Origin: Luteitalea sp. TBR-22
GTDB lineage: Bacteria; Acidobacteriota; Vicinamibacteria; Vicinamibacterales; Vicinamibacteraceae
Reading direction: 5' to 3'
Assembly (NCBI RefSeq): GCF_016865485.1
Contig: NZ_AP024452.1
Coordinates: 6,222,501 to 6,286,500, forward strand
DNA: 64,000 nt
Made by a program: the position numbers and the translations under genes. The notes under the pieces are model-generated. The model searched no databases, had not been told where the DNA came from, and saw only the letters and a program-made list of their open reading frames with translations. Positions 8,378 to 62,126 of the stretch are shown one piece after another; position 1 is the first letter of the stretch, and the number at the start of each line of letters is the position of its first letter.

Positions 8378-8401
8378 GTCACGGCCTTCGTCATGCCTTG
8401 G

Positions 8402-26642: not shown

Positions 26643-26668
26643 TCGGCCTCCGCTCGCTGCCGCGAGCT

Positions 26669-27024: not shown

Positions 27025-27035
27025 GTTCTGGGCCG

Positions 27036-27902
27036 CTACTTCTGCGTGCTGGTGATGTCGACGGCGAGCCCGTCGACGAACGTCACCTCGATCACCTCGC
27101 GCCGCGTCTCCCAGGTGTCGATGCTCGTGGCGTAGTCGCCCTGCGTCCCCGGGCGCCGACGCGACGGAAAACCCAGCACCGCATACACGTCGGCCGTCGT
27201 CATGCCCTTGCGCAGCGACGCAAGCCGCGGGTCCGAGAAGTCGACGTAGCGCGCAAGCACCTGCATCAGGTCGGCCGGCGACGGCACCCACTGCTCGAGC
27301 CGCTTGTCGGGATACCACACGTTGATCCGTGAGCCCCGCTCGAGGCGCTTCCTGGCGATCTCGGCCTTCTTGATCGCCTCCTCGAGCTCGATCCGGCGGT
27401 TCTCGGCCATCGTGTCGCGCGATCGATCCATCGACAGCGACAGCAGCTGGCGTTCGATCTCCTTCTTGCGCGCCGGATCGCGCGTGCGATCGCGCTCCTT
27501 CTCGAGGTCGAGCTCGCGCGCGCTCTTCGGGATGTAGGCGACCCGGGGCACCACGACGGGATCGTTCCGCGTGCCGTAGCCGCCACCCGCGAGGTGGATC
27601 TCGATGTTCTTCGTGTTGACCTTGATGAGGGTGATCGGCGCGCGCGTGCCCCTGGGGAGGGCGGTGCCGAACTCCTTGAGGCGGAGACCGTAGGCCTCGG
27701 CGTCGATGTCGGGCTCGCGTTGCGGGTAGACGTCGATGCCGCCGTGCGATGCGGGCATGTCGATCGACATCGTCACCTGCCGCCCCTCGAGCGCCGCCTT
27801 CAGCGCGGCGACGCCTTCGGCAGGCTGCGCCCGCACCGTCGCCGTCTGGCACCACACCAGCACGACGCACCCGACACCAATCAGGACGTCAGTGACCCGC
27901 AT
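27036..27902 (-). CDS. Exported protein with coiled coil and SmpA/BamE-like C-terminal domain (paralogue 1)
   Basis: A 288-residue protein with a signal peptide (hydrophobic residues 5-22, cleavage near AQA). After a beta-rich region (about 30-120) there is a charged helical stretch (about 123-185, 'ELDLEKERDRTRDPARKKEIERQL' type) likely to form a coiled coil, then 'NVWYPDKRLEQWVPS', then a C-terminal domain with 'LRKGMTTADVYAVLGFPSRR', the GMT-xxV-xxLLG-P pattern of SmpA/OmlA/BamE-like folds. The start at 27902 was chosen since the upstream 15 codons overlap a microsatellite. It is a paralogue of the next gene, with matching regions in the same order. Function unknown. Confidence 0.75.
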   Translation of the reverse strand: MRVTDVLIGVGCVVLVWCQTATVRAQPAEGVAALKAALEGRQVTMSIDMPASHGGIDVYPQREPDIDAEAYGLRLKEFGTALPRGTRAPITLIKVNTKNIEIHLAGGGYGTRNDPVVVPRVAYIPKSARELDLEKERDRTRDPARKKEIERQLLSLSMDRSRDTMAENRRIELEEAIKKAEIARKRLERGSRINVWYPDKRLEQWVPSPADLMQVLARYVDFSDPRLASLRKGMTTADVYAVLGFPSRRRPGTQGDYATSIDTWETRREVIEVTFVDGLAVDITSTQK

Positions 27903-45114: not shown

Positions 45115-45191
45115 CGCGCCCCTCGCGTTCGCCCGAGCGTCGTCGATCGTTGTACTCGAGGAGACGGCACACGTCTCACACCGGGCTACTC

Positions 45192-47657
45192 GTGACAGAC
45201 ATCCTCCTCAAGCGCATCGTCACCCAGGGACTCCAGAGCGAGCCGTTCACCTACTACGTCCTCGCGTCCTGCGAGGGCGACCAGGCTCTCGCCACCTTCA
45301 TCGACGACGGTGTCGGGCCACGGCGGTCGGAAGTGATCACTGCCGATGCCGGCGCGCCGCTGCGTCGCGCGTACATCCGGAGTGTGAAGGTGCGTGGCTT
45401 CCGGGGCATCGGGCCGGAGCGCACGCTTGACCTGCATCCGGCCAATGGCCTCACGGTGATCACGGGCCGCAACGGCTCGGGCAAGAGCAGCTTCGCGGAA
45501 GCGATCGAGGTCATTCTGACCGGGAAGTGCGTGCGAGTGGCCTCGATGCAGAAGCGGTGGCGTAACAGTTGGCGCAACCTCGACGCCACCCATGCACCCT
45601 GGATCGCCCTCGAGTTCAACATCGAGCACGCGGGGTCGGTGGTGTTGCAGCGCAAATGGAATGCGCAGGAGGACCTCGAGGACACGACGGGCGAGCAGAC
45701 GGTGGTGAAGGCCCCCGACGGCACGGTGCCGATCGCGGAGACAGGATGGCGCAGGGCCGCGGCGGACTACCGGCCGTTCCTGGCGTACAGCGAGCTCGGC
45801 ACGCTCATCACCGAGTCGCCCTCGCAGCTGCACGACGCGCTCCTCGCGGGCCTCGGCCTCTCCGACATCGAGAACGCGCGCAAGCGCATCGTCGCGGCGC
45901 GCAACCAGCGCAAGACGCTCATCACGCAGGCGCGCGACACCGCAAAGCTGTTGCTGGCGACGGCGCGAACCGTGGCCTCGCAGCATGAGGATGAACGCCT
46001 GCGCCGACTCGCGGCGCTGCTCGACGCCGACAGCGTCGACCTCGACGCGATCACGGCGCTGGTCGATCTCGCGGCCGACACGGACGACGACGTCCAGCAA
46101 CTCAGGGAGTTGGCCTCGCTGCCGGCTCTCGACCTGGACATCGTGTCCAGGGCCGTGCACGCCCTGCGTGAGGCCGATGAGCGCGATCGCTTCGCGGCGG
46201 CGGACAAGGCGGGTCAGGCGCGGCGAGTCGCCCGCCTGCTCGAGCAGAGCCTGGAGGTCGTGGCGGCTTCGGCCGACGGCACGTGCCCGGTGTGCAAGTC
46301 GCCAGGGGTAATCACGGACGCATGGCGCGTCGAGACGCGAGCCGAGATCGACCGACTGAAGGTCGAGGCGGAGGCAGCCGAACTGGCACGCGGTGCGGTA
46401 AGACAGCGGCTGGCCGAGGCGCGGCAATTGATCACGCCGATGCCCGGAGCCGTGACGCGGGCGGCGGCATCACCGGTCGATGGCATCGACGCCAGTGCCG
46501 TGGCGGCTGCATGGGCCGCCTGGGCGGCCGTGCCCGCTGACATCACGTGCGAGACGCTCGCCTCGCACCTCGAGGCCCGCGGGCCGGCACTGGCGGATGC
46601 GGTCGAGCGCGTACGGGAGGCGGCGCGGGCGCTGCACGAGCGCCGGCAGGACGTGTGGCGGCCACTCGCACTGCAGGTGCAGGCGTGGCTTCCGGACGCC
46701 CGTCGCGCGCAACGGCTCGCGGTCGTGATTCCGCAACTCGACGAGGCCGCCGACTGGCTGCGAACGGCGGTCGACGAGTTGCGCGACGAGCGGTTCGAGC
46801 CGATTCAGGCACAGGCCGTGAAGAACTGGGAACTGGTGCGACTGCAGAGCAGCGTCAACCTGCGCGACATCACGCCGTCAGGCGCGGGTCCAACGCGTTC
46901 GGTGTCGCTCGACGTCGATATAGACGGGCACCCGTCCAACGCGCTCGGGGTGATGAGCCAGGGCGAGATCAACAGCATGGCCCTCAGCCTCTTCCTGCCC
47001 CGCGCGGCCCTGGCCGAGAGCCCCTTCGGGTTCATCGTGGTCGACGACCCGGTACAGGCGCTCGACCCGTCGAAGGTGGACGGCTTGGCGCGACTCCTGG
47101 CAGGTGCGGCCCAGGAGAGGCAGGTGATCGTGCTGTCGCACGACGATCGCCTGCCCGAAGCCATCCGCCGGTTGGGGATCGAGGCCCGCTTCGTGGACGT
47201 GAGCCGACGCGCCAACTCGGTCGTGGAGCTCCGACGGACGTCTGGCCCCATCGAGCTGCTCATCGAGGATGCGCGCGCGGTGGCCAAGACGCCGGAAGTC
47301 CCGTTGAGTCGCCGGCAGCGACTCGTGGCCGGCTTCTGTCGCTCCGCCATCGAGGCCGGGTGCATGCAGGCCATTCGCGCACGCCGCATCGGTCGGGGTG
47401 AGGCGCACGCCGACGTGGAGGACTTCCTCAAGGAGATCGACCGCCTGAAGGAGCTCGTGTCGGTCGCCTTGTTCGACAGGATCGACGAAGCGAAGGTGGG
47501 CCCCCGGCTCACCAACGCGCTCGGCGCCTGGGCGCGCGACGTCCTCGACGACTGCAACGAAGGCGCGCATGGGAGGTTCGACGGCGACCCGCTGGCGCTC
47601 GTGAAGGACGCCGAGAAGCTCGCGCTGTACCTGCGCGACCACGTGAAGGCTGCGTGA
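45192..47657 (+). CDS. SMC/Rad50-like AAA ATPase with zinc hook
   Basis: An 821-residue RecF/SMC-type ATPase. Walker A GRNGSGKS (92-99), a C365PVC368 zinc-hook motif flanked by helical arms (about 200-350 and 380-520), a D-loop/signature region 'VMSQGEINSMALSLFLPR', and Walker B FIVVDDP (614-620). A 170-residue helical C-terminal domain ends with 'DDCNEGAHGRF', a motif seen in HEPN-like helical tails. About 60 extra N-terminal residues precede the ATPase. It is too short for Rad50/SbcC and lacks a paired Mre11-like nuclease gene. Start GTG 45192 is the best-supported; ribosome binding is unclear. The HEPN gene follows 1 nt after. Confidence 0.8.
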   Translation: MTDILLKRIVTQGLQSEPFTYYVLASCEGDQALATFIDDGVGPRRSEVITADAGAPLRRAYIRSVKVRGFRGIGPERTLDLHPANGLTVITGRNGSGKSSFAEAIEVILTGKCVRVASMQKRWRNSWRNLDATHAPWIALEFNIEHAGSVVLQRKWNAQEDLEDTTGEQTVVKAPDGTVPIAETGWRRAAADYRPFLAYSELGTLITESPSQLHDALLAGLGLSDIENARKRIVAARNQRKTLITQARDTAKLLLATARTVASQHEDERLRRLAALLDADSVDLDAITALVDLAADTDDDVQQLRELASLPALDLDIVSRAVHALREADERDRFAAADKAGQARRVARLLEQSLEVVAASADGTCPVCKSPGVITDAWRVETRAEIDRLKVEAEAAELARGAVRQRLAEARQLITPMPGAVTRAAASPVDGIDASAVAAAWAAWAAVPADITCETLASHLEARGPALADAVERVREAARALHERRQDVWRPLALQVQAWLPDARRAQRLAVVIPQLDEAADWLRTAVDELRDERFEPIQAQAVKNWELVRLQSSVNLRDITPSGAGPTRSVSLDVDIDGHPSNALGVMSQGEINSMALSLFLPRAALAESPFGFIVVDDPVQALDPSKVDGLARLLAGAAQERQVIVLSHDDRLPEAIRRLGIEARFVDVSRRANSVVELRRTSGPIELLIEDARAVAKTPEVPLSRRQRLVAGFCRSAIEAGCMQAIRARRIGRGEAHADVEDFLKEIDRLKELVSVALFDRIDEAKVGPRLTNALGAWARDVLDDCNEGAHGRFDGDPLALVKDAEKLALYLRDHVKAA

Positions 47658-47658
47658 G

Positions 47659-48048
47659 GTGGGCGACGCTTCCCCGCGCGACGTCCTGCAGGACGCGACC
47701 GAGCTGATCACGAGCACCGACTGGGCCACCTCGTTCTGGTGGTGTCGGGGCGCGGCGTTGCTGGCCAGGCAGGCCCTCGAGCTGTCGGTGGGACAGTTCT
47801 GGGAGGCACACGACCCAGGCATGGAAGCGGCGTCGATGCGGGCGCAGTTCCTGTGCCTTCACGACGTCGAACTCGAGGCACGCGTGATCGCCGACGCGAG
47901 GATTGCCTACGATCTGCTGTCGCGGGCATGCCACTACCACCCGTACGAACTTCAGCCCACGCGGGAGGAGGTGGTGCACTGGGTGGCCGCCGTCGAACGG
48001 TTCCATGAGGCGCTGGTCGCCCACGCCATGCGCCTGCCGCAACGCTGA
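47659..48048 (+). CDS. Small HEPN-like protein (putative RNase)
   Basis: A 129-residue all-helical protein starting at GTG 1 nt after the ATPase stop. It has the R-x4-H signature of HEPN ribonucleases (Arg89 to His94, SRACHYHPYEL) in the last third, as expected, and the upstream 'RGAALLARQALELSV' helix. HEPN proteins are frequent RNA-cleaving effectors in toxin-antitoxin, abortive-infection and CRISPR systems. Coupling to a zinc-hook ATPase suggests ATPase-gated activity. The HEPN call rests on motif and helix pattern, so the ribonuclease role is unproven. Confidence 0.6.
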   Translation: MGDASPRDVLQDATELITSTDWATSFWWCRGAALLARQALELSVGQFWEAHDPGMEAASMRAQFLCLHDVELEARVIADARIAYDLLSRACHYHPYELQPTREEVVHWVAAVERFHEALVAHAMRLPQR

Positions 48049-48473
48049 TGGATCGGCATCTCCTCGAGGCCTACCGGCGCGCCGAGTACCGGGTTGCCGA
48101 TCGCGGCTACACGTTCACGCTGCGCATCGACGCGCTGTCATGGCCCCTGCGCGCGGTGCACGCCTCCTTCGGCGTGGACCGGTCGGCCTACATCACGGCC
48201 TGGAACCCGGGCAGCGTGCCGACCGATCGCGCCATCAACGAGGCCGCGCAGGCGAGCCTGACCGCGGACGTCGAGGCGCTCGGCCTGCACTGGCTGCGTG
48301 GCGAGGGCGTCGACCCGTCGGGGTCGTGGCCGGGCGAGCCGTCGCTGCTCGTGCTCGGCCTGCGCGAGCCGGAGGCGCGCGCGTTGGCGGCGCGCTATGG
48401 CCAGGTGGCCATCCTCTACGCGAGCTCGGACGCCACGCCACGGCTGCTGGTCACCGGTCCCCTCCAGGCGTAG
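48048..48473 (+). CDS. DUF3293 domain protein
   Basis: A 141-residue cytosolic protein with the DUF3293 pattern 'YITAWNPGSVPTDRAINEAA', 'GSWPGEPSLLVLGL' and 'ARYGQVAILYAS'. DUF3293 proteins are small and of unknown function, usually standalone. It overlaps the HEPN gene by 1 nt (TGATG), so it is probably in the same transcript. This placement may be functional or accidental. Confidence 0.82.
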   Translation: MDRHLLEAYRRAEYRVADRGYTFTLRIDALSWPLRAVHASFGVDRSAYITAWNPGSVPTDRAINEAAQASLTADVEALGLHWLRGEGVDPSGSWPGEPSLLVLGLREPEARALAARYGQVAILYASSDATPRLLVTGPLQA

Positions 48474-48549
48474 GGGCATCACGGCATCGCAGATCGCCGC
48501 GTCAGACCGGTCCGGCCGCGGGCGTTTCCCTTCCATGGAGGGGACGCGC

Positions 48550-49224
48550 ATGAAGACGGACATCACGGTGGTGCTGGATCGGTCGGGCTCGATGGCGGAC
48601 ATCGCCGACGACATCGTCGGCGGGCTCAACGAGTTCGTCGCCAAGCAGAAGGCGCTCGAGGGCGAGGCGCACTTCACGCTGGTGCAGTTCGATGACGAGT
48701 ACGAGGTGGTGCACTTCCGCGTGCCCATCGGCGAGGTCCCGCCGCTGACCCGGCAGACCTACGTGCCCCGGGGGATGACGGCGCTGCTCGACGCCATCGG
48801 CCGCACCATCAACGAGATCAACGCCCGCATGGACCGCATGCGCACCGAGGAGCGGCCGGACCAGATCGTGTTCGCCGTGGCGACCGACGGCCAGGAGAAC
48901 TCGAGCCACGAGTTCACGAGGCGGCAGATCTTCTCGATGATCCGCTCGCGCGAGAAGCTCGCGCAGGTGGATCCGTCGGCCAGGCCGACGTGGGAGTTCG
49001 TGTTCCTGGGCGCCAATCAGGACGCGATTGAGGAGGGCGGCCAGATGGGCTTCGCGGCGGCCCGCGCCGTGGACTTCGACGCCGACGCCGGCGGCGTGCA
49101 CGCCGCGATGAGCGTGATGCACAGCAAGATCGCGCTCAAGCGGTCGATGGGCCACCTGGCCTCGATGGACTTCGCCTCGAGCGAGCGCTCGCAGCTGAGC
49201 CGCAAGAAGCGCAAGACCAACTAG
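48550..49224 (+). CDS. von Willebrand factor A domain protein
   Basis: A 224-residue protein made up almost entirely of one vWA domain. The MIDAS motif DRSGS is at residues 10-14, Thr in 'PRGMTALLDAIG' near 77, and Asp in 'VATDGQENSS' near 118. A Lys/Arg-rich tail (SRKKRKTN) ends it. No signal peptide. vWA proteins often act with AAA/MoxR ATPases or proteases in conflict systems. It lies 76 nt after the DUF3293 gene, so it may share the operon. GGAGGGG is 7-14 nt before the ATG. It converges on the toxin-antitoxin genes with a 4-nt 3' overlap. Confidence 0.88.
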   Translation: MKTDITVVLDRSGSMADIADDIVGGLNEFVAKQKALEGEAHFTLVQFDDEYEVVHFRVPIGEVPPLTRQTYVPRGMTALLDAIGRTINEINARMDRMRTEERPDQIVFAVATDGQENSSHEFTRRQIFSMIRSREKLAQVDPSARPTWEFVFLGANQDAIEEGGQMGFAAARAVDFDADAGGVHAAMSVMHSKIALKRSMGHLASMDFASSERSQLSRKKRKTN

Positions 49225-49598
49225 GCGAGGCGCAAGCCGTCTGCGACGAAGCGGGCGAACCCGGCATCGGTCGTGGCCAGCGGCGCTTCCGCGTCGATGG
49301 CCGCGGCCGCAATCAGGCAGTCCGGGAGTGAGCCGCGGCGACGTCCAGAGGCATTGAACAAGCGCGCGGCGAGTTCGGCATGACGCGCGTGGATGGGAAC
49401 GGGGGCGCTGAGCAATCGGGCGGCAAGCGCCCGCTGCTGGTCGGTGACCGGGCCGCACAGGAACTCCGCCCACGCCATGGCGCTCATGTGAATGGCCCGT
49501 CCCTCATTGAGCCATCGCGTCATCCGTGACGCGGCCTCGGTCTCCGGTCGGGCCGCGCGCAGCAGGAAGCTCGTGTCGATGTGAACGGCGGTCGTCAC
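49221..49598 (-). CDS. PIN-domain toxin (VapC-like)
   Basis: A 125-residue PIN ribonuclease with the four acidic positions: Asp8 (HIDTSF), Glu in 'WAEFLCG', Asp in 'LPDCLIAAAA' and Asp in 'TTDAGF'. VapC toxins cleave tRNA or rRNA. The GTG start overlaps the antitoxin stop (GTGA). Its own stop overlaps the convergent vWA gene by 4 nt, an unusually tight tail-to-tail fit. Confidence 0.9.
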   Translation of the reverse strand: MTTAVHIDTSFLLRAARPETEAASRMTRWLNEGRAIHMSAMAWAEFLCGPVTDQQRALAARLLSAPVPIHARHAELAARLFNASGRRRGSLPDCLIAAAAIDAEAPLATTDAGFARFVADGLRLA

Positions 49599-49867
49599 GG
49601 CTTCTCCCAGGCCATCACGTGCGCGTCGCGCTCGGCTCGGATCTCGGCCACCCAGGCGGCCTCCTTCTCCGGGGTCATCTGCATCGACGCCTGCAGTTCC
49701 TTCAGCGCCGCCAGGCGATCCGAGGCGGCCGACTGCTCGTCGGCCATGCGCACGGCACGTCGCAGCACTTCCGATTTCGACACGTTCCACCTCCTGGCCA
49801 GTTGCTCGATCCGCCCAATCGTGTCCTCGTCGAGTGAGTACGTCGTTCGAACCGATGTTATTGCCAT
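49595..49867 (-). CDS. Ribbon-helix-helix antitoxin
   Basis: A 90-residue protein with an N-terminal CopG/RHH DNA-binding motif (TTYSLDEDTIGRIEQLARRW, residues about 8-27, then 'VSKSEVLRRAVR') and a helical C-terminal toxin-binding tail. It neutralises the co-encoded PIN toxin and autoregulates. The ATG at 49867 lies within the predicted operator, 6 bp from the -10 box, suggesting a leaderless mRNA; an upstream start at 49909 would cover the promoter. Confidence 0.88.
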   Translation of the reverse strand: MAITSVRTTYSLDEDTIGRIEQLARRWNVSKSEVLRRAVRMADEQSAASDRLAALKELQASMQMTPEKEAAWVAEIRAERDAHVMAWEKP

Positions 49868-49902
49868 ACCCAGAGTATGGTCGTAACTGTTCTCGAGCGC
49901 AA
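49864..49902 (-). promoter_or_regulatory. Toxin-antitoxin promoter/operator
   Basis: On the minus strand, TTGCGC (49897-49902), 17 bp, CATACT (49874-49879). CCATAC (49864-49869) and GTATGG (49875-49880) form an inverted repeat overlapping the -10 box and the start codon. Confidence 0.55.
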
Positions 49903-49974
49903 GGGCCATCTGCCACGCCTCCGGCGCTTCGCAGTGGTAGCCCTCGTGCCAGGCGTCGAGGCCCGGAAAAGCCG

Positions 49975-50058: not shown

Positions 50059-50961
50059 CTACCGCGGAGTCGCGGCCTTCACCACCGGCGCGTCCGACGC
50101 GCTCCACTCCTGGTACGAGCCGTCGAACAGCTTCACGTCGTAGCCGAGCATGCGGCCGACGATGACGGGGACGGTGGCCTGCACCCCAGAGGTGCAGTAG
50201 CTGACCAGCGGGGTCCCCGGCGTGAAGCCGGCGTCGCTGAACATCTTCTTCAGGTCGTCGGTGGACTTGAGCGTCTTGTCGGCCTTGAAGAACGTGCTGT
50301 ACGGCAGGTTCACCGCGCCGGGGATGTGGCCGGGCCGCTTGATGGCGCCGCCGCGGTCGTCGGCCCCGGTGTACGACTCGACCGGGCGCGCATCGAGCAC
50401 GTGCGGGGCTGGGGCGTCGAGCCCGGCACGCACCGCCGCGAGGTCGATCGTCGCGCCCTCGCGGACCTTCACCGTGAGCGATCCGGGCCTGGGCGCGGGC
50501 ACGGGCTCCGAGCTGATCCCGTTGCCGGCCGCCACCCACGCCGAGAGGCCGCCGTCGAGGATCGCCGTGCGCGCCCCGAGGCCGGCGTAATCGAGGGTGA
50601 AGGCGACGCGCGTCGCCAGCGGGAACTCGCCGTTGCCGAAGTACACGACCACCCGCGAGTCGTCGCTGATCCCGAGGGCCTCGAGCTTCGCCTCGAGGTC
50701 GGCAGGGGCAGGCAGCTCGTTCTGCCGCGGCGGGTTCGCCGTGGTGATCATCGAGAGGTCGACGAAGTGCGCGCCCGGGATGTGCTCCCTGGCGTAGGCG
50801 TCCTTGTCGCCGACGTGGAGCAGCACCAGCTTCGGGTTGCGCAGGTCCGCGGCGAGGGCCGACGCGGAGACGAACGTGGGCGTGCCGGCCGGCGCCTGGG
50901 CGAAGGCCGCGGCGGCGGAGAGCAGCGAGATCGCGAGGGCGGGGATGATGCGACGAGCCAT
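50059..50961 (-). CDS. Exported two-domain rhodanese sulfurtransferase (copy 1)
   Basis: A 300-residue protein with a signal peptide (hydrophobic 5-20) and two rhodanese domains (about 30-155, inactive, and 165-295, active). The catalytic Cys256 is in the loop YCTSGVQA, similar to thiosulfate sulfurtransferases. It is periplasmic. It is a paralogue of the 58088 gene, sharing 'ALGISD.SR', 'RVAFTLDYAGLG' and 'GRMLGYDVKLFDGSY.EW'. It is downstream of sbcC, separated by a pair of B-type repeats, so it may have its own promoter. Confidence 0.9.
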   Translation of the reverse strand: MARRIIPALAISLLSAAAAFAQAPAGTPTFVSASALAADLRNPKLVLLHVGDKDAYAREHIPGAHFVDLSMITTANPPRQNELPAPADLEAKLEALGISDDSRVVVYFGNGEFPLATRVAFTLDYAGLGARTAILDGGLSAWVAAGNGISSEPVPAPRPGSLTVKVREGATIDLAAVRAGLDAPAPHVLDARPVESYTGADDRGGAIKRPGHIPGAVNLPYSTFFKADKTLKSTDDLKKMFSDAGFTPGTPLVSYCTSGVQATVPVIVGRMLGYDVKLFDGSYQEWSASDAPVVKAATPR

Positions 50962-50983
50962 GCCGGAAGCGTAGCAAATCCAC

Positions 50984-51063
50984 CAGGTAGGGCGGCATGT
51001 CCCCATGCCGCCGTTGGTCGGATCACCGACGAACGGCGCGATGGGGACATCGCGCCCTACCTG
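50984..51063. repeat. Two facing B-type elements
   Basis: CAGGTAGGGC-stem-GCCGTTG (50984-51016, stem GGCATG/CATGCC) faces an inverted copy at 51031-51063 with a different stem (GCGATG/CATCGC). The right copy supplies the TAG stop codon of sbcC. Ends are conserved while stems differ but stay self-complementary. Confidence 0.8.
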
Positions 51064-54000
51064 ATTGACCAGCGGGAGCCGTCGGGGCGCTTCTCGATCA
51101 CCACGCAGGTCGGCATGCGATCGGTGAGTTCGCGCACGTGCGTGATGATGCCGACCATGCGGCCGCTGACCTGCAGCGACTCGATGGCCGAGGCCACCAC
51201 GTCCTGGGCAGCCGCGTCGAGCGTGCCGAACCCCTCGTCGATGAACAGGCTGTCGAGCCGCACCGCGCCGGCGGCGCGCTGCACCTGCTCGCTGAGCTCC
51301 AGGGCGAGGGCGAGCGAGGCCAGGAAGGTCTCGCCGCCGCTCAACGTGTCGGCGGCCCGCCGCTCCTGCGCGTTGTCGTGATCGACCACCACGAACTCGT
51401 CGTCGATCCACTGCAACGTGTAGCGGCCCGAGAGCTCCATCAGCCGCGTCGAGGCGCCCAGGACGAGGCGCTCGAAGTACTCGCGCAGCAGCCAGGCCTG
51501 GAAGGCGTCGGCCTTGAGGTCGCTGGAGAGCCGCGTGTAGGTGTCCACGCCCTGGCGCGCTGCGGCGACCTGCGACTGCGCGGCGACGGCCTCGAGCGCG
51601 CGGGCCCGCAGGCCCTGCAGCCGCACCTCCAGCATCGCCACGTGCCTGACGTGCCCCTGCACCGCCTCGTCGGCCTCGCGCTCGGCCTCCAGGCAACGCG
51701 CCACATCGTCGTCGCGCACGGGCTCGGAGCCCAGCCGCGCTTCGATCTCGGCCAGCTGCGCGTCGACGGCCGCGACGCGCCGCGCGTGCGCGGCGGCCTG
51801 GTCCTCGAGCTCGCCCAGGTCGGCAGGCGTCAACAGGGCCGACGCGGCCTCGGCAATCGACGCGAAGCCCGAGGCAGCCAGGGTGCCGGTGATCCGCGCC
51901 GTCACCGCCTGGAGGGCCAGGGCGGCCTGTTCCAGGGCCCGCGCCGCGGCCGCGTCGGCCTCGGTCGCGCCGGCCAGTGTCGTCTCCTCGCGCGACGCCG
52001 CGACGCGCGCCGCGTCGTGCGCGCCCTCGACGTCGAGGATGCGGGCGCGCAGGTCGGCCAGCTCCGCGCGCGGGTCGGCGGCGTCGGTAGCCTGCCGGAT
52101 CTCGGCCCGCTGCTCGTCGAGCCTCGCCTGCTTCTGTCCCAGCTGCGTCGAGAGCGCAGCGAGCGCCTGCTGGGTCGAGGCGATGGCCTGCGCCGTCAGC
52201 GCGACGCGATGCTCGGCGGCTAGTCGCGACGTCTCGAGGATCTGTCGCTGCCGCTCGCGGCCCTCGCGCTCGGCACGCAGCGCCTGCAGGTCGTCGAGGC
52301 GCTCCAGCAGCCAGTGCTCCGGCATCGCTGCCCTGGACGCCGGCAGGTACGGCGCGAGGCGACTGGCCAACGTCGCGATGGTGCTGGCGACGCGCTCCCG
52401 CAGCGCGCGCTGCTGTTGCTCGGCAGCCGCAAGACGGGCCCGCGCGCCTTCGACGGCCGCGGCCGCCTTCACCTGGCGCTCGCGCTGCTTCTCCACGCGC
52501 TGACCGAGGGTGACGCAGGCATCGGCCGCCTCGTTCTGGGCGTCGAGCAGCGCCGTGAACTCGGGGGCGTGCTCCACCGGCGGCACCTCGGCGACCAGCT
52601 GCGTGCACACGGGACACGCGTCGCCGGCGTGCAGGTGCGAGCGCAGCGTCATCGCGCGATGGGCGTCCTGCGCGGCCGTGAGCTGGCGCGCCACCTCGGC
52701 CCGCCGCGCCTCGGCCCGCGTGAGCGCGGCGCGTGCCTCCTCGAGCGCCGTCGCCTCGGCGGCCGCGATGCGCTCGTCCTCTGCCAGGTCGGCGCGGGCA
52801 CGCGACGCCTGGGCCTCCGCATCGGGGCCCTGCTGGCGCGCCGACCGCAGTTCGCGCGCGACGTCGCGCCACTGCTCGCATGCGGCCAGCTCCGCGGGAT
52901 CGAACGTGACCGCTGACAGTTGTCGATCGAGCCGCGCCACGTCAGCGGTCACCTGCTCGAGAGCCGTCGACCGTTCGACCTGCTCGCGGAGCCGGTCCTC
53001 GAGCTCGGCCGCGCGGGCCACGCGTTCCCGGGTGAGCGTCTCGCACTCTGCGGCCAGCGCCTCTGCGTGCTGCAACCGGCCCTCGAGGGCCTGCAGCTTC
53101 TCGGCCTTCTCGCGCGCCGGCGCCAGGGCCGCCACGGCCCGCTCCGCCTCGGCCAGCCGCGCACGGGCCCGCGTCGCCGCCTGTTGCGCCGCGGCCAGTC
53201 GTCCGGCGGCCTTCTCCCGTGCCTCGGTCCGCTCGCGATGCACCGCCTCGTCGCGCGCGTGCTGGGCCAGTTCGGCCTCGATCGCCTGCGCCCGCCGCGA
53301 TCGCGCGATGCGCTCGAGCCGCGCCACTTGCTGCGGCTCCGACTCCCGCAGCGCATCGCGCTCGGCACGACGGACCGCCAGATCCCCGGCGAGCGCCGCG
53401 CGCGCCTCGGCCAGCACGCGAGCCGCCTGCGCGAGGGCCCTGGCCTCGACCAGCTGCGGCTGCCGCGCCTGCGCGGCCGCCAACTCGAGCTCCGAAGCGG
53501 CAATCGCCTCCGGCGTCGCGTCGGCGCAGGCGTCCAGCTGCCGCTGGGCGGCGTCGAGCTCCGCCTGGGCCTGCGCGCAACGCTCACGCGCCAGTTGCCG
53601 CATCCGGCCGTACACCCCCAGACGCAGCAAGTCCTGCAGGATCTGCCGGCGCTGTGCCGGCGCGCCCTTGAGGAAACGCGCGAACTCGCCTTGCGGGAGG
53701 ATGACCGCGTGCGTGAACGCGTCGTAGTCGAGGCCGACGATCCGCTGCACCGCGTCCTTGACCGCCGTGGAGTTGGCCGCCACGGGCGTCGCGCGTCCGT
53801 CGACGATCTCGTCGAGCTGGCACGTGCCCGCCGTGTTGGTTCGGCGCACCGTCCGCGACACGACGAACGTGCGCGCGCCGACGGCGAACCGCAGCGTCAC
53901 CGTCATGCGGTCGCGGCCGTGCGAGATGAGCTCCTTCATCTGCGCCCGGCCGACGCGCGGCACCTCGCCGTAGAGCGCGAACGTGATCGCGTCGAGCACG

Positions 54001-54122
54001 GAGCTCTTGCCCGCGCCGGTCGGGCCGGTGATCGCGAACAGCGACAATCCGGAGAGGTCGAGTTTCTCCTGCGGGTCGCGGAAGCAGGTGAACCCGTTGA
54101 CCTCGAGGCTGAGCGGCTTCAT
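51057..54122 (-). CDS. sbcC: Exonuclease subunit SbcC (Rad50-like)
   Basis: A 1021-residue SMC-like ATPase. Walker A GPTGAGKS (33-40), long Ala/Glu/Arg coiled-coil arms (about 180-480 and 530-820) around the zinc hook C503PVC506, the signature 'TLSGGETFLASLALALEL', and Walker B 'DSLFIDEGFGTLD'. With SbcD it opens and trims hairpin or blocked DNA ends. Its start overlaps the sbcD stop (ATGA). Length is typical. It is the last gene of the herA-nurA-sbcD-sbcC set. Confidence 0.96.
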   Translation of the reverse strand: MKPLSLEVNGFTCFRDPQEKLDLSGLSLFAITGPTGAGKSSVLDAITFALYGEVPRVGRAQMKELISHGRDRMTVTLRFAVGARTFVVSRTVRRTNTAGTCQLDEIVDGRATPVAANSTAVKDAVQRIVGLDYDAFTHAVILPQGEFARFLKGAPAQRRQILQDLLRLGVYGRMRQLARERCAQAQAELDAAQRQLDACADATPEAIAASELELAAAQARQPQLVEARALAQAARVLAEARAALAGDLAVRRAERDALRESEPQQVARLERIARSRRAQAIEAELAQHARDEAVHRERTEAREKAAGRLAAAQQAATRARARLAEAERAVAALAPAREKAEKLQALEGRLQHAEALAAECETLTRERVARAAELEDRLREQVERSTALEQVTADVARLDRQLSAVTFDPAELAACEQWRDVARELRSARQQGPDAEAQASRARADLAEDERIAAAEATALEEARAALTRAEARRAEVARQLTAAQDAHRAMTLRSHLHAGDACPVCTQLVAEVPPVEHAPEFTALLDAQNEAADACVTLGQRVEKQRERQVKAAAAVEGARARLAAAEQQQRALRERVASTIATLASRLAPYLPASRAAMPEHWLLERLDDLQALRAEREGRERQRQILETSRLAAEHRVALTAQAIASTQQALAALSTQLGQKQARLDEQRAEIRQATDAADPRAELADLRARILDVEGAHDAARVAASREETTLAGATEADAAAARALEQAALALQAVTARITGTLAASGFASIAEAASALLTPADLGELEDQAAAHARRVAAVDAQLAEIEARLGSEPVRDDDVARCLEAEREADEAVQGHVRHVAMLEVRLQGLRARALEAVAAQSQVAAARQGVDTYTRLSSDLKADAFQAWLLREYFERLVLGASTRLMELSGRYTLQWIDDEFVVVDHDNAQERRAADTLSGGETFLASLALALELSEQVQRAAGAVRLDSLFIDEGFGTLDAAAQDVVASAIESLQVSGRMVGIITHVRELTDRMPTCVVIEKRPDGSRWSIR

Positions 54123-55294
54123 GCCGGCTCCTCCTCGCGCAGCGCCGCGGCGTACAGCGCGTCGAAGGCCGCGAGCGTCGCCTCCGTGGAAGTGCCGCCC
54201 GACTGCTGGACGTAGGCCTGATACAGCTCGCGCGGCGACACCGTGCCCGGTCTGGGCGCCACCGGTGCGTCCTGGCCCGGCTCGGCCCGCCGCAGCTCGA
54301 CGCTCACCACGCCAGGGAATGCGTCGCGGACACGCCTGTTGATGTCGGGATCGACGGGGCCGAGCGCCGCATCCACGACGACGCGCAGGTGCGGCTGCCC
54401 CGTGAGATCGACGTCGGCGACGACCGGCACCGTGCCCGGGATGACGATCGTCCGCAGCGGGCGGGCGCCCACGTACGGTCGCGCCTCGACCCGCGCCGGC
54501 TGGCCGGGACGGGCGTCGATGACGTTGTAGGCCTTGGCCTCGCCCTCCTCCCCGAAATCGAGCTGCATCGGCGCGCCGGCGTACCAGGTGGGCGCCGGGG
54601 CGGCCTCGATGCACTGGTGCCGGTGGATGTGCCCGAGCGCCACGTAGTGCGCCGTCGACGGCAACACCTGCGGCTGCGCCGCCCAGTCGTCGCCGACGTG
54701 CATCCGGCGCTCGCTCTTGCCGACCACCGCGCCATCCAGGTGCGTGTGGGCCAGCAGCAGGTTGACCGTGGTGCCGCCGAATCCCGCGCACATGTGCGAG
54801 ACGTACTGCTGCATGCGAGCGGCATACGTGGACATCGCCGCGTCGGGCGCCGCGCCCAGTTCCTCGGCCGACAGCACCTGCGCCGCCGACACGAACGGGA
54901 TCATCGCCACCAGCGCGGCCTCGCCCGAGGCCGTCTCGATGGCCACCCGGCCGCCCTGGTCACGGTGACGCACGACGCCGCGCGCAGTCACCCGCGCGAG
55001 CTCGGCCAGCTGCGCCCACGCTTCCACGCGCGCCGGGCTGTCGTGGTTGCCGGCAATCAGCACCGACGGCACGTCGAGCCGGCCGATGCGCCGGAAGAAG
55101 CCGAACACGATGCGCTCGGCCTCGGCCGGCGGCGACGGCGTGTCGAACACGTCGCCGGTCATCAGCACGAGGTCGATGCGCTCGCGCTCGACGACGTCGG
55201 CCAGGTCGTCGAGCACCGCGGCGAGCTCGTCGAGGCGCGACTGTCCCTTCCACGCCTTGCCGGCGTGCCAGTCGGACGTGTGGAGGATTCTCAC
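54119..55294 (-). CDS. sbcD: Exonuclease subunit SbcD (Mre11-like)
   Basis: A 391-residue calcineurin-like phosphoesterase nuclease. Metal-site motifs: 'LHTSDWHAGK' (Asp8, His10), 'MTGDVFDTPSP', 'AGNHDSPAR' and the late 'ALGHIHRHQ'. It is the nuclease subunit partnering SbcC. It begins at GTG 55294 overlapping the HerA stop (GTGA). The C-terminal 120 residues form the SbcC-binding capping region. Confidence 0.95.
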   Translation of the reverse strand: MRILHTSDWHAGKAWKGQSRLDELAAVLDDLADVVERERIDLVLMTGDVFDTPSPPAEAERIVFGFFRRIGRLDVPSVLIAGNHDSPARVEAWAQLAELARVTARGVVRHRDQGGRVAIETASGEAALVAMIPFVSAAQVLSAEELGAAPDAAMSTYAARMQQYVSHMCAGFGGTTVNLLLAHTHLDGAVVGKSERRMHVGDDWAAQPQVLPSTAHYVALGHIHRHQCIEAAPAPTWYAGAPMQLDFGEEGEAKAYNVIDARPGQPARVEARPYVGARPLRTIVIPGTVPVVADVDLTGQPHLRVVVDAALGPVDPDINRRVRDAFPGVVSVELRRAEPGQDAPVAPRPGTVSPRELYQAYVQQSGGTSTEATLAAFDALYAAALREEEPA

Positions 55295-56961
55295 GGCGTG
55301 ATCCGGGCAAACAGCGCGTTGTCGTCCTCGACCCTCGCCGCGGGCACCTCGCTGGCACGCGTCGCCCAGGCGGGGAACGGGAACCGCACGAGCACGGGCA
55401 TCGGCACTTCCGGCTGCGCGACGATCATCGTGCCAGGCTGCAGCATCGACGCACGTTGCCGTCCGACGGTCGAGAGGAATCCGTACTCGGCGCGCTGCGC
55501 CTCGGCCGCGTCGAGGCGCCCCACGACGCGCAGCGAGGCGTTGGAGACGATGCGCCGCTCCACCTCGCTCGCCGTCTGCTGCGCGCCGAGCAGCGACACG
55601 CCGAGCGATCGCCCCCGCTCCGCGATGTCGAGCAGCACGTCGCGGATCGGGCTCCAGCCCTCGCGCGGCGCGTACTTGTTCAGCTCGTCGAGCACCACGA
55701 ACACCAGCGGCCGGGCGGTGCCCTGCTGCTCCTTCTCCTCGAGCATCCGCTTGAGCAGCACGCCGACGACGAACATCTGCGCAATCGAGTGCAGCTGGTG
55801 GATGTCGACGACGGTGACGCGGTGGTTGCGGAGCTGCACCTCGCGGTTGCGCGCGTCGGAGTCGCCGCGCACCAGGTGGCCCATGTGCTGGGCGGCGCGG
55901 TGCAGGCGCCGGCGGAAGGCGTCGAGCGTGCCCTGGGCGACCGGCGTGCTGCCCATCATCGCGTCGAGCGCGGTCGTGTCGAGCAGATCGACGAGGTCGT
56001 CGAACGACAGGACGGGCGCGCCGTTCACCCTGATGCTCGCGCTGGTGGGATCGCCCTCGCGGGCCGCCTGCTCGAGCGCCTTCTCCACCCGCATCACCAC
56101 GATCGGGAACTGCGCCTTCGCGTCGTCGCCGTCCGCGAACACGAACGGCAGCAGCCGCTGCTTCGCGAACTCGCGCATCGTCCACACGTACGGGGACACG
56201 CCCTCCTGGCGGCTGCCGGTGCTCGGCACGAGGGCGCCAATCGCCCGGTTCGCGGGGGCGTACAGGCCGACGCTCGTGAACGGCCCGACCGGCAGGCCGA
56301 GCCGCGCGTAGACCTGCCTGGCCTCGTCGGTCAGCCGGGCGTTGGGCGTGTCGAGCCAGAGCAGGTCCTCGCCCTTGACGTTGAAGATCAGCGCCCGCGT
56401 GTTGATGGCCTCGGCGCCGAGCACACCGGAGTGGAACAGCGAGTACAGCAGGAACGTCGCGTAGGACGTCTTGGTGGCGACGCCAGACACCCCGCTGATC
56501 GAGGCATGCGCGCCGCGCGTGCCGTCGAGGAACTCGAGGTTGGCGTACACCGGCTCGCCGCTGCGCGACACGCCGATGGGCAGCGGCTGCTCCATGCGAT
56601 CGGCGAACAGCGCCTGCCGGAACTCCTCGCCGACGACGACCCGCGCCGGCGTGCCCGGATGCGGCGGCACGTAGACCTCGGGGTCGATGCGCGTCACCTG
56701 GACGTGCGCGGCGTACGAGACGTCGGCCGGCAGGATGCCCTTCGCGACGCGGAAGGCATCGCTGTCGAACTGGCCGCCCTCGTAGCGCTTGCGGACGATG
56801 TCCACGAGGCCGAAGAAGCGGACGACCGTGCCGTCTGGCTGCCGGGCCTCGACGAGGATCGGGTCGTCGAGCTGCACCGACGCGCCCTCCGCGACCCCGA
56901 TCCAGAAGTCGAGGGGCGTCGCGTCGAGCGAACCGAGCACGAGGGCGGTCGGGGTGGTCAT
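55291..56961 (-). CDS. herA: HerA-like DNA translocase ATPase
   Basis: A 556-residue protein with an N-terminal HAS-barrel-like beta domain (about 1-110) and a FtsK/HerA ATPase. Walker A reads GVSGVATKT (157-165), a variant with the Gly-Lys spacing of the family but Ala-Thr before Lys. Walker B 'FVVLDELNKYAP' lies near 455. 'ERGRSLGVSLLGAQQTAS' is the sensor segment. HerA hexamers pump DNA and stimulate the NurA nuclease during end resection. It overlaps nurA and sbcD by 4 nt each. Confidence 0.85.
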   Translation of the reverse strand: MTTPTALVLGSLDATPLDFWIGVAEGASVQLDDPILVEARQPDGTVVRFFGLVDIVRKRYEGGQFDSDAFRVAKGILPADVSYAAHVQVTRIDPEVYVPPHPGTPARVVVGEEFRQALFADRMEQPLPIGVSRSGEPVYANLEFLDGTRGAHASISGVSGVATKTSYATFLLYSLFHSGVLGAEAINTRALIFNVKGEDLLWLDTPNARLTDEARQVYARLGLPVGPFTSVGLYAPANRAIGALVPSTGSRQEGVSPYVWTMREFAKQRLLPFVFADGDDAKAQFPIVVMRVEKALEQAAREGDPTSASIRVNGAPVLSFDDLVDLLDTTALDAMMGSTPVAQGTLDAFRRRLHRAAQHMGHLVRGDSDARNREVQLRNHRVTVVDIHQLHSIAQMFVVGVLLKRMLEEKEQQGTARPLVFVVLDELNKYAPREGWSPIRDVLLDIAERGRSLGVSLLGAQQTASEVERRIVSNASLRVVGRLDAAEAQRAEYGFLSTVGRQRASMLQPGTMIVAQPEVPMPVLVRFPFPAWATRASEVPAARVEDDNALFARITP

Positions 56962-58091
56962 CCGGCGATCAGGTCCACGATCTTGCGGCGAATCAGCCGC
57001 GCATCGCCCATCTGGTGGCGCAAGTGATCTTCGAGCGCGCCGAAGGGCATCAGGTTCTGCGGCGCGCGGGGATCGCGCGCCGACGACGGGGCGAAGGCCG
57101 GCAGGCGCGTCGCGGCCTCGTCGGCAAGCCGACGCGCGACCTCGAGGCCGGATCGCGCGCTGACCTCCAGACGCACCAGTCCGGACATGTCTGACTCTGC
57201 CGGCCCCGGCGCCGCCAGGCGCAGGAACCACGAGTACCGCGCTCGTGCCTCCTGGCCGATCAGGAACACCGGCGTGCGTTGGCCGGCACCAAGCCGCGCG
57301 AGCACCGGCCGGTGCGATTCGGGCACGTACAGCTTGTAGACGCGCTTGATCAGCCCGACGATGTCGGGCATGCGTCGACGGTCGGCGCCACCCAGGGCGC
57401 CGCCGCGACGGTCCCCGCGCAACGACCGCCGCTCACCGGCGCCCGCCGGTGGACCCTGCTGCGCGCGACGTCGGTCGATGCCGGCGGCCGGCCCGAGATC
57501 CTGCAGCGGGCCATCGCAGACGATGAGCGGCGGACGATCGATCTCGCGCGTCGGCAGGCCGAGCGGCCCGGTGCGCGGGCCGCCCGCCGGGATGAAGGGC
57601 GATTGCGTCATCGCCGCTTCGGCGCGGCGCATCGCCGCATGCAGGGCCTCGAGCGGTCCGTCGGGTTCGGGGTCTGGCGTGCTGAGCGGCTGGTACTCGA
57701 GCTCCGGGCCGATGCGGACGGGCCAGTCCGGCAGTTCGCCGCTGCCGTAAATCAGGTGCCGGCCGAACCGCGCGTCGGCGAACTGGGCTTCCCGCCCCGG
57801 CGTCGCGACCACGCAGCCGACCCCGTAGCTGCCGAAGGCCCCGTAACAGGAGACGCCGCGCGATTGCACGATCAGCCGCGCCTCGAGACGGCGGACGCCG
57901 TCGATGAAGGCGATGGTCCGCTCGTCAGGCTCGCGTAGCGGGTCGACAGGCGCCCATACGCCGGCCGGGTACTCCACCCCCAGGTCCACCCCATCGTCGG
58001 CACCCGCAGTGACCGAGAAGTCGGCCTGCATCTCCGCGCCGTAGTCGACGTCCCAGCCGTCGAGGCGCACGGTGAACCCGCCGAACGTCAC
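56958..58091 (-). CDS. nurA: NurA-domain nuclease
   Basis: A 377-residue protein with the RNase-H-like NurA acidic residues Asp64 (AFIDGVRR) and Asp193 (IVCDGPL), the two markers of the family. It is the 5'-3' nuclease partner of HerA. An Arg/Gly-rich stretch near 205-240 is unusual and may be a loop. Its GTG start overlaps the rhodanese stop (GTGA), and its own stop overlaps the herA ATG. Confidence 0.8.
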   Translation of the reverse strand: MTFGGFTVRLDGWDVDYGAEMQADFSVTAGADDGVDLGVEYPAGVWAPVDPLREPDERTIAFIDGVRRLEARLIVQSRGVSCYGAFGSYGVGCVVATPGREAQFADARFGRHLIYGSGELPDWPVRIGPELEYQPLSTPDPEPDGPLEALHAAMRRAEAAMTQSPFIPAGGPRTGPLGLPTREIDRPPLIVCDGPLQDLGPAAGIDRRRAQQGPPAGAGERRSLRGDRRGGALGGADRRRMPDIVGLIKRVYKLYVPESHRPVLARLGAGQRTPVFLIGQEARARYSWFLRLAAPGPAESDMSGLVRLEVSARSGLEVARRLADEAATRLPAFAPSSARDPRAPQNLMPFGALEDHLRHQMGDARLIRRKIVDLIAG

Positions 58092-58999
58092 GGCTTGCTG
58101 ACCGGCGCGTCGGGCGTCCGCGCCCACTCCTCGTAGGACCCGTCGAACAGCTTCACGTCGTAGCCGAGCATCCGGGCCACGAAGTAGGGAACGGTGGCCT
58201 GCTGCCCGATGTGACAGTAGGTGGCGATCGAGGTGCCGGGCGCGGCGCCTGCCGCCTTCAGCATCGCCTCGAGCTCGGCGCGGGGCTTGAACGTGCCGTC
58301 CTCGCGCACGAAGGTGCTGAATGGCGCGCTCACGGCGCCGGTCACGTGTCCAGGCCGCGGAATGCGCCCGTTGTTGTCGCTCTCGCCCGTGTAGAACTGC
58401 GGCAGGCGCGCGTCGATCACCAGGCTGCCGCTGGCGCCGGCGTGCGAGCGCACCCAGGCGAGGTCGGCGACCGCCTCCGGGCGCGGCCGGAGCGTGAGCG
58501 TGCCGGGCGCGGGCGCCGCAGGCACGTCGGTCGTCACCGGCTTGCCGGCCGCCTTCCACGCCGGCAGGCCGCCGTCGAGCACCACGGTGCGGCCGCCCAG
58601 GCCAGCGTAATCCAGCGTGAAGACGACGCGGGTCAGCGGGCTCACCCAGTCCTTGCCCATGTACAGCACGATGCGCGAGCCGTCGGAGATGCCGAGCGCC
58701 TCGAGCCTGGCCTCGAGGTCGGCCGGCTCCGGCAGCTGGAGCGTGAGGCCGCCCTCGCGCGGCGCAGCGGCGATGGCCCGTGTCTCGAGATGCCGGGCGC
58801 CCTGCAGGTGCCCCGCGTCGTACTCGGCCTTCTCGCCGATGTGGAACACCACCGTTGCGGGGTCGGCGAGCATCGGCTCGAGCTGCGCCACCGTGACGAG
58901 CGAGGGCGCGCCGCCCGGCTGTGCCGAGGCGGGCGAGGCCGCAGCTCCCACGAAGGCAACGAGGGAGACGACGAGGCTCGGGATCAGGCTGCGGGTCAT
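58088..58999 (-). CDS. Exported two-domain rhodanese sulfurtransferase (copy 2)
   Basis: A 303-residue protein with a signal peptide (hydrophobic 6-26), an inactive first rhodanese domain and an active second with Cys262 in YCHIGQQA. It is about as long as the copy at 50059 and clearly paralogous. Its stop overlaps nurA by 4 nt, so a periplasmic sulfurtransferase is the first gene of a DNA-repair operon, which is functionally surprising. The active-site loop differs from copy 1 (CHIGQQA against CTSGVQA), suggesting different acceptors. Confidence 0.9.
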   Translation of the reverse strand: MTRSLIPSLVVSLVAFVGAAASPASAQPGGAPSLVTVAQLEPMLADPATVVFHIGEKAEYDAGHLQGARHLETRAIAAAPREGGLTLQLPEPADLEARLEALGISDGSRIVLYMGKDWVSPLTRVVFTLDYAGLGGRTVVLDGGLPAWKAAGKPVTTDVPAAPAPGTLTLRPRPEAVADLAWVRSHAGASGSLVIDARLPQFYTGESDNNGRIPRPGHVTGAVSAPFSTFVREDGTFKPRAELEAMLKAAGAAPGTSIATYCHIGQQATVPYFVARMLGYDVKLFDGSYEEWARTPDAPVSKP

Positions 59000-61401: not shown

Positions 61402-61857
61402 TCAGGCGGTCGGCAGCGACGGGCCACGTGCGCCATATCTGGTCAGGCGGCGCGCCACGGCGGCTGCGGCGCGATTGAGCGCAGCGTCGGCGCTCGAGAA
61501 CATCACGGGCTCCGGCGCGGCATCGCGGGCGACGGCCTCATACGCGGCCAGATGCAGGCTGTCGTAGGCACGCAGACGATACTGCTCCGCCAGCTCTCCG
61601 GCCCGGCGACAGAGGCCGTCGTCCACGTCGTACACCAGAAGGGCCGGCCACAAGCCCAGGAAGGCACGCTTCGCCTCGGCGTGTTGGCGAGGCGCAAGAT
61701 CGCGGCGCCGCCGTGCCAGGGCCGCGCGTGCCTCCGTGTAGGCCAGCGACAGCGTGATCACCACGTCCGCGTCGTCCACCTGCTCGACTACCGCGAGACT
61801 ACCTGCCTCGTCGAGGAACAGCTTCACCAGGCTGCTCGTGTCGAGGTACACAATCAC
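61402..61857 (-). CDS. PIN-domain toxin (VapC-like)
   Basis: A 151-residue PIN protein: Asp6 (VYLDTSSLVKLF), Glu in 'YTEARAALA', Asp in 'RAYDSLHLAAY' and Asp in 'SSADAALN'. Its GTG start overlaps the antitoxin stop by 4 nt (GTGA). Probably an RNase inhibited by the paired antitoxin. Confidence 0.9.
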   Translation of the reverse strand: MIVYLDTSSLVKLFLDEAGSLAVVEQVDDADVVITLSLAYTEARAALARRRRDLAPRQHAEAKRAFLGLWPALLVYDVDDGLCRRAGELAEQYRLRAYDSLHLAAYEAVARDAAPEPVMFSSADAALNRAAAAVARRLTRYGARGPSLPTA

Positions 61858-62126
61858 CGTCGATCCTCGAGCACCGTCTGCGACAACGGAGGACCACCGC
61901 GCAGGCGAGCGCGTGGCGCCTTGACGACGGGCTTGCCGCCGTTCCACCGCGCGCGTCCCTCCCGCACCATGCGCCATGCCCATTCGTGGTCCGGCGCCGG
62001 CTTCGCTGGCGACAGGGTGGCGATCTCACGCCCGCGGTCGGTGACCACGAGCGTCTCCCCTGCCTGCACGCGCTTCAGGTGATGACTCAGTCGCGCCTTC
62101 AGGTCGCGAACACCGACCTTGGTCAT
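61854..62126 (-). CDS. Phd/YefM-family antitoxin
   Basis: A 90-residue protein beginning MTKVGVRDLKARLSHHLKRV, with 'GETLVVTDRGREIATLSP', the Phd/YefM DNA-binding fold. The C-terminal region binds the toxin. Together with the PIN toxin it forms a type II module that differs in antitoxin class from the one at 49595. Confidence 0.92.
   Translation of the reverse strand: MTKVGVRDLKARLSHHLKRVQAGETLVVTDRGREIATLSPAKPAPDHEWAWRMVREGRARWNGGKPVVKAPRARLRGGPPLSQTVLEDRR

Follow-up and report, generated by a model that had tools for sequence, protein, structure and literature searches.

A bacterial nurA-herA-sbcD-sbcC operon in Luteitalea sp. TBR-22 and its relatives: candidate genes for an accessory DNA-end-processing machine

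We analyzed a stretch of 64,000 nucleotides (nt; hereafter the window) from Luteitalea sp. TBR-22, corresponding to positions 6222501-6286500 of its single-contig genome of 6.47 Mb, and found on its minus strand the serial genes rhodA-nurA-herA-sbcD-sbcC, in which a rhodanese gene precedes genes for a NurA nuclease, a HerA ATPase and the SbcD and SbcC proteins. All four junctions are 4-nt overlaps (ATGA or GTGA at the three junctions from nurA to sbcC); a preliminary description of this DNA had noted these three in series, which we confirm, and the overlap of rhodA with nurA is a further one. We consider, with moderate confidence, that nurA, herA, sbcD and sbcC represent a bacterial operon family encoding one accessory DNA-end-processing machine. 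The set is arranged as follows, in window coordinates:

56958 to 58091, minus strand: nurA, bacterial-type NurA nuclease with an RNase H-like fold, 377 amino acids, GTG start (phmmer and Foldseek)
57363 to 57503, minus strand: R/G-rich insert in NurA, in frame, residues 197-243, between DGPL and VGLIK (alignment and AlphaFold2 model)
55291 to 56961, minus strand: herA, Deinococcus-type HerA, 556 amino acids (phmmer, 7f6d_B)
54119 to 55294, minus strand: sbcD, Mre11-family nuclease of bacterial type, 391 amino acids, GTG start (TIGR00619)
51057 to 54122, minus strand: sbcC, Rad50-family ATPase with a CPVC motif, 1021 amino acids (TIGR00618 and motif in the sequence)

The window HerA is homologous over its full length to HerA of Deinococcus radiodurans (7f6d_B; phmmer E = 2.3e-157, in stretches covering residues 6-299 and 313-540), and residues K164, D425, E426 and R451 are invariant in an alignment of 29 sequences. 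From established knowledge of the families, we take K164, D425 and E426, together with D64 and D193 of NurA, to be the Walker and catalytic residues. With a profile built from the 29 sequences, HerA of D. radiodurans scored E = 1.4e-199 and four further ATPases of HerA-like or DUF87 type scored between 6e-5 and 4e-3; the one hit nameable as archaeal, Thermococcus kodakarensis 9x1l, came at E = 1.0. The likeness of the window protein to HerA chains besides that of D. radiodurans lies mostly in the ATPase core. NCBIfam HerA models gave weak matches (E ~1e-4), and Pfam gave no match at E = 0.1 for either HerA or NurA. The preliminary naming of the pair as HerA and NurA was thus borne out by the homology comparisons and found little echo in the family libraries. 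HerA is expected to be a hexameric translocase of double-stranded DNA (dsDNA).

NurA matched D. radiodurans NurA (7f6d_H) at E = 1e-20 (phmmer), and its AlphaFold2 model, with a predicted local distance difference test score (pLDDT) of 84, matched 7f6d_G (4e-19), 1zup (1e-14) and the archaeal 2ygk (1e-5) in Foldseek, as well as chain 8wfd_G of TdpAB (E = 3.6e-4). In a 35-sequence alignment, D64 and D193 are invariant, giving the RNase H-like fold its conserved acidic residues, and W13 and Y17 are at least 90% conserved in a pin-like N-terminal motif; we read these two from the alignment as putative counterparts of W8 and F13 of the D. radiodurans protein. The NurA family PF09376 matched 21 of the 35 aligned NurAs at E = 0.01 and nothing anywhere in the source genome. 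The insert sets the window protein apart, since its DGPL-VGLIK interval is 48 residues long, whereas the 67 other NurA rows have a median of 9 and reach 22 at most (a count that excludes the window and the incomplete row L035, and in which L146 shares a genome with L033). Insert residues 212-234 have a pLDDT below 50, and the model suggests that the insert is probably disordered; the core of the protein is predicted with high confidence, and the reading frame is open. The GC content at third codon positions (GC3) is 0.79 in the insert versus 0.87 in the remaining nurA, and no second full copy of the insert as a repeat was found genome-wide, just short partial matches.

The two remaining proteins can be assigned to the bacterial SbcCD families. 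SbcD scored above the cut-offs of TIGR00619 (1.2e-55) and of the phosphoesterase domain PF00149, reaching 189 bits for the bacterial sbcd family versus 55 for Mre11_Sulfo; three SbcDs from herA-first operons showed the same preference for the bacterial over the archaeal family. SbcC also scores best with its bacterial family, with a TIGR00618 match (E = 4e-85, 286.6 bits) under the curated cut-off of 478.5 bits; PF13476 and PF13558, which cover its ABC-ATPase heads, are above their cut-offs, and the CPVC motif of a zinc hook can be read in the sequence.

To place this gene set among bacteria, we collected relatives of HerA with two peptide patterns taken from three acidobacterial HerAs, which gave 255 confirmed stretches, of which the best 80 were analyzed. 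In 73 of these 80 loci, herA has sbcD downstream in the same orientation; four of the other seven (L035, L045, L052 and L067) stop at a contig edge, and no sbcD was found within 8961, 2980 and 8916 nt downstream in L056, L086 and L107, respectively. All four genes are on one strand at 54 loci, comprising 20 with the window order nurA-herA-sbcD-sbcC, 33 with herA-sbcD-sbcC-nurA (among them L072, in which sbcC is in two pieces) and L093, where nurA lies further off. The linkage was found across several phyla. In a separate sample of the actinobacterial class Acidimicrobiia, to which L050 belongs, HerA was present in 68 and SbcD in 85 of 198 genomes; 66 of the 68 HerA-bearing genomes had SbcD, downstream within 10 kb in 63 and within 500 bp in 49. 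In this HerA clade the genes are linked as a rule, and for the clade the expectation in the preliminary description, that sbcCD of bacteria are mostly separate from herA-nurA, is not supported. The same description had named a common occurrence of this order across bacteria as an outcome that would speak against it, and the counts for the two orders largely amount to that.

Overlaps of 4 nt also occur in relatives; as raw counts for junctions within 200 nt, they were seen at 23/66 sbcD-sbcC, 15/33 sbcC-nurA, 11/59 herA-sbcD and 7/22 nurA-herA junctions. Distances between HerA proteins correlate with those between SbcD proteins (r = 0.91, 231 pairs from 22 nurA-first loci, L146 being left out). 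The herA-first loci form one group both in the HerA tree (support 100, quick tree) and in the SbcD tree (100/99), so the gene order appears to have changed rarely. In these trees, from which L045, L068 and L070 were left out, all loci off the nurA-first list are labelled herA-first, incomplete ones included, and L025 is labelled nurA-first although nurA was not seen there. HerA is rare in the window's own phylum, with matches in at least 8 of 297 genomes, three of them close. A literature search of titles and abstract openings recognised no report of wide bacterial linkage, of the two orders or of plasmid copies, and found none on coexistence with AddAB-like enzymes or on same-genus rhodanese-sbcD-sbcC loci without nurA-herA. 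Iyer and colleagues may have discussed bacterial HerA neighbourhoods in Nucleic Acids Research (NAR) in 2004; we therefore do not claim novelty for the linkage itself.

A check for recBCD/addAB, suggested in the preliminary description, found AddAB-like genes. The source genome carries an AddA/AddB-like pair at 5.68 Mb and a second pair, RecB/AddA-like and AddB/RecC-like, at ~5.52-5.53 Mb, all with scores below equivalog cut-offs. Searching 40 of the 80 carrier genomes, we found PDDEXK_1 proteins in 37 and, in 31, two long ones encoded on one strand no more than 6 kb apart, and on sequence grounds we read these long pairs as putatively AddAB- or AdnAB-like. E. coli was not detected at the threshold of this search, so RecBCD-type enzymes may be missed. 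Because most carriers examined, the source genome included, have AddAB-like enzymes, and because the operon has a scattered distribution and is in part carried on plasmids, its role would be an accessory one. Bacterial NurA-HerA has been described from few bacteria, such as Deinococcus-Thermus, a group which is stated in the same source to lack RecBCD and AddAB (PMC9960219).

In the mechanism that we propose, SbcCD would recognise DNA ends and clip those closed by a hairpin or blocked by protein, after which HerA, as a hexamer bound to a NurA dimer, would load onto the freed end and pump the duplex inward. The duplex would be split on the NurA pin, and mainly the 5' strand would be degraded. 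We infer the joint action of the four proteins, the clearing of ends and the accessory role; the strand polarity is suggested by analogy with D. radiodurans, in which HerA pumps duplex DNA and, in vitro with ATP, the 5' tail is resected by NurA (PMC9960219). An interaction of archaeal Mre11 with HerA has also been reported (PMC2288612).

The surroundings of the operon in related genomes bear on how stable the set is. Three further features delimit the locus:

58088 to 58999, minus strand: rhodA, rhodanese/sulfurtransferase, upstream neighbour overlapping nurA by 4 nt (Pfam Rhodanese, 2.9e-21)
50962 to 51056, minus strand: palindromic spacer of 95 nt between sbcC and rhodB (sequence)
50059 to 50961, minus strand: rhodB, second rhodanese, downstream neighbour (Pfam Rhodanese, 5.5e-27)

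rhodA is a landmark of the locus and lies outside the end-processing machine; in three genomes of the same genus this gene immediately precedes sbcD, and a 63-65% match to rhodB is located after sbcC in one genome (G297). No rhodanese was present in the upstream DNA examined of 14 nurA-first relatives checked. The preliminary description had treated positions 50059-58999 as one span, which does contain the four-gene set and also takes in two rhodaneses that are outside it; as a single unit it was rejected, since in genomes of the same genus the rhodaneses are part of the locus even where nurA-herA is lacking.

SbcD matches were found in at least 16 of 120 genomes of the same order (like the HerA tally for the phylum, a lower bound, with candidates in many genomes scored only in part), and nurA-herA lies before sbcD in 11 of the 15 examined (all but G366). 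In three genomes of the genus (G125, G297 and G298), sbcD-sbcC come right after the rhodanese with nothing of nurA-herA between (the G298 contig stops within sbcC). At the locus of a fourth, G299, the rhodanese and its flanking genes are present without sbcDC, and this genome gave no SbcD match. The presence or absence of nurA-herA falls exactly between rhodA and sbcD, and the flanking genes in the genus are largely the same in either case. Genome-wide, no HerA match was found in G125; G297, G298 and G299 were checked at the locus only. A gain in the window lineage is favoured by the SbcD tree (G298,(window,(G125,G297))), in which only the window carries nurA-herA at the locus, and by the rhodA tail, which is shorter in the window genome than the three other rhodA tails compared, that of G298 being read from its locus DNA. 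An old presence with losses is favoured by the order-mates that carry nurA-herA in the same place before sbcD, by HerA and SbcD distances that fit one line (window residual -0.030, the second most negative of 22 loci) and by the lack of mosaicism in the N-terminal part of SbcD. The HerA and NurA trees place the window with L033, L034 and L147 weakly (44/91 and 57/86), a grouping that is neither shown nor rejected in the SbcD data (p-AU 0.399); the rpoB trees had no starred branch. When the short spacers were searched for traces of nurA-herA, the short matches obtained were chance-like (best E = 0.036 with tblastn and 0.008 with blastn, the latter over 12 nt). In one family of the same order (L148-L151 and L153-L155) we also observed a divergent nurA-herA-sbcD-sbcC operon, whose HerA is ~40-42% identical to that of the window.

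The operon also occurs on plasmids. A plasmid collection contained six HerA records, of which the 11.85 Mb Nonomuraea record was taken as a chromosome. All four genes are present on plasmids of Streptomyces sp. BB1-1-1 (herA-first) and, in nurA-first order, of Sphaerospermopsis kisseleviana (conjugative), Candidatus Chlorohelix and Aulosira laxa (mobilizable); the copy on a Nostoc plasmid is interrupted by the end of the record. The sets of Chlorohelix and of the two cyanobacterial plasmids besides Sphaerospermopsis are distant, with HerA 27-28% identical. On the Streptomyces plasmid (L164:1-16438), herA-sbcD-sbcC-nurA adjoins jetA, jetB and jetC, the three Wadjet genes covered (jetC is cut by the locus edge), as well as an ImmA/IrrE gene similar to CapP/RmrA. 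On the Chlorohelix plasmid (L166:1-15029), nurA-herA-sbcD-sbcC adjoins an ImmA/IrrE gene, with TIR, HEPN and kinase genes upstream within 9 kb; the TIR gene had no PADLOC match. ImmA/IrrE as a general neighbour of the operon was rejected, as a search of the open reading frames (ORFs) at all 80 loci with a threshold of E = 1e-5 gave no homologue of the two proteins. With PADLOC models, the best match of the window HerA was mad8 (1.5e-12), HerA models scored 3.6e-6 or worse, SbcC was remotely like mad3 and LmuB, and NurA had no match; no known anti-phage HerA system with its partner was recognised. Phage records gave two distant HerA matches, one of which, in Marinitoga camini virus 1 (KP836355.1, 38504-40129), shows 23% identity.

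Several observations weigh against a joint end-processing machine. Correlated HerA and SbcD distances are expected for any co-inherited gene pair, whether or not it forms an operon, and in the Acidimicrobiia sample SbcD occurs without HerA in 19 of the 85 SbcD genomes (19 of the 130 genomes without HerA). The two gene pairs are separable, given that nurA-herA does not precede sbcD in G125, G297, G298 and G313, the last of which has sbcDC and no herA within the 14 kb examined. D. radiodurans deleted for nurA and herA tolerated high mitomycin C and UV better (PMC9960219), so a positive role in repair is unproven, and one source doubts end resection by archaeal HerA-NurA at all (PMC12977600). The NurA insert could also impair the window copy. 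In one alternative reading the machine is decaying in this strain, with the insert next to the catalytic strand of NurA and the absence of nurA-herA at same-genus loci as marks of module loss. The length of the insert, its low-confidence loop and its lower GC3 would fit such decay, as would the lack of nurA-herA at the locus in G125, G297, G298 and G299 (HerA having been searched genome-wide in G125 only) and of an SbcD match in G299. However, the nurA frame is open, the NurA core is modelled with high confidence, D64 and D193 are intact, and so are HerA, SbcD, SbcC and every overlap; we regard decay as improbable. Another explanation is that the operon is mainly a module for defence or plasmid competition, in which HerA-NurA and SbcCD destroy invading or unprotected linear DNA and which moves on plasmids. 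Other HerA-nuclease pairs act in this way, and the idea draws on the patchy spread in order and phylum, on four complete plasmid copies and the truncated Nostoc one, on the neighbours of the Streptomyces and Chlorohelix copies, and on the remote similarities of HerA to mad8, of SbcC to mad3 and LmuB, and of the NurA model to 8wfd_G. TdpAB, to which this last chain belongs, is a defence system. An antiviral role has been suggested for archaeal HerA-NurA (PMC12977600). Nevertheless, the PADLOC similarities are weak and generic, neighbours were checked on two plasmids without a control, the Chlorohelix TIR gene and the ImmA/IrrE genes lend no pattern for the reasons given above, the constant flanks in the window's genus give no sign of a variable defence island, and HerA in 68 of 198 genomes of a class is frequent for a defence module. 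We therefore see a mainly defensive role as possible and, on balance, unlikely. A related and equally tentative proposal, in which we place rather little confidence as a whole, is that the four genes form a mobile bacterial module for DNA degradation, with a role of its own rather than as a substitute for AddAB or RecBCD: the combination of SbcCD as end-opener with a dsDNA-pumping HerA-NurA ring, carried on plasmids and in one case next to Wadjet genes and an IrrE-like gene, would destroy foreign or unprotected linear DNA. Where sbcDC is already present, the nurA-herA pair could be gained or lost beside it, as seen in the genus at this locus.

The preliminary description had called the operon archaeal-style and perhaps transferred. 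Its gene content is indeed that of the archaeal herA-mre11-rad50-nurA set (PMC10470591), as seen in Sulfolobus/Saccharolobus, with the same four functions linked on one strand; the herA-first bacterial operons have the archaeal order, of which the window order is a rotation with nurA first. Herein lies the attraction of a horizontal transfer of the operon from Archaea, to which the herA-nurA of Deinococcus-Thermus has been attributed (PMC12977600). Against it, the HerA profile meets a nameable archaeal entry only at the level given above, SbcD and SbcC are closest to bacterial families, the base composition of the operon resembles that of neighbouring genes, and NurA keeps the aromatic pin positions of a motif that PMC9960219 describes as absent from archaeal NurA. 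On the profile scores and the bacterial-type pin, we rejected archaeal transfer as a likely reading and hold it to be very improbable; as far as these sequences indicate, the operon is not archaeal by recent descent. The trees cover bacterial rows only, so a very old archaeal transfer is conceivable, and with a patchy, plasmid-borne operon, transfer in another sense may hold. In S. islandicus each gene of the set is essential (PMC4351679), whereas the window-type set is patchy. Among bacterial systems, NurA-HerA of D. radiodurans (PDB 7F6D; PMC9960219) is alike in HerA and NurA sequence and in the pin positions kept, and the window differs from it by the linkage to sbcD-sbcC, the NurA insert and the AddAB-like enzymes alongside, RecBCD and AddAB being described as missing from Deinococcus-Thermus carriers. 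A published bacterial precedent is Oceanithermus profundus, in which hepA (herA) has sbcD and sbcC downstream (PMC5448004), as in the window when compared by description; that source describes SbcCD as having been recruited later, in a single genus of Thermales, whereas the linkage found here extends across several phyla. The Sir2-HerA and DUF4297-HerA defence systems (PMC12977600) and TdpAB likewise combine a HerA-family translocase with a nuclease, and the window operon is without a Sir2 or DUF4297 partner.

Other features were observed elsewhere in the window. On the plus strand, positions 44649-49224 hold an SMC/RecF-like ATPase gene, a small ORF, a DUF3293 gene and a VWA gene; the ATPase gene was matched in G125, G297 and G299, and the VWA gene in G297. 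PIN-domain toxin/antitoxin-like pairs flank the operon at 49221-49916 and 61402-62126 (PIN+RHH and PIN+Phd/YefM). A tandem repeat with a period of 78 nt lies at 26577-27044, and a 38-nt palindrome-like repeat has four dispersed copies, at 8401, 11410, 25382 and 59095.

Taken together with the picture given in PMC9960219, our findings indicate that NurA-HerA is more widely distributed: it is linked to SbcCD, occurs in about one third of the Acidimicrobiia sample, in scattered acidobacteria and on plasmids, and mostly stands beside AddAB-like enzymes. The role of HerA-NurA where AddAB exists, and whether SbcCD feeds ends to HerA-NurA, are now testable questions, for which genomes of the same genus with and without nurA-herA at one locus provide a natural control.

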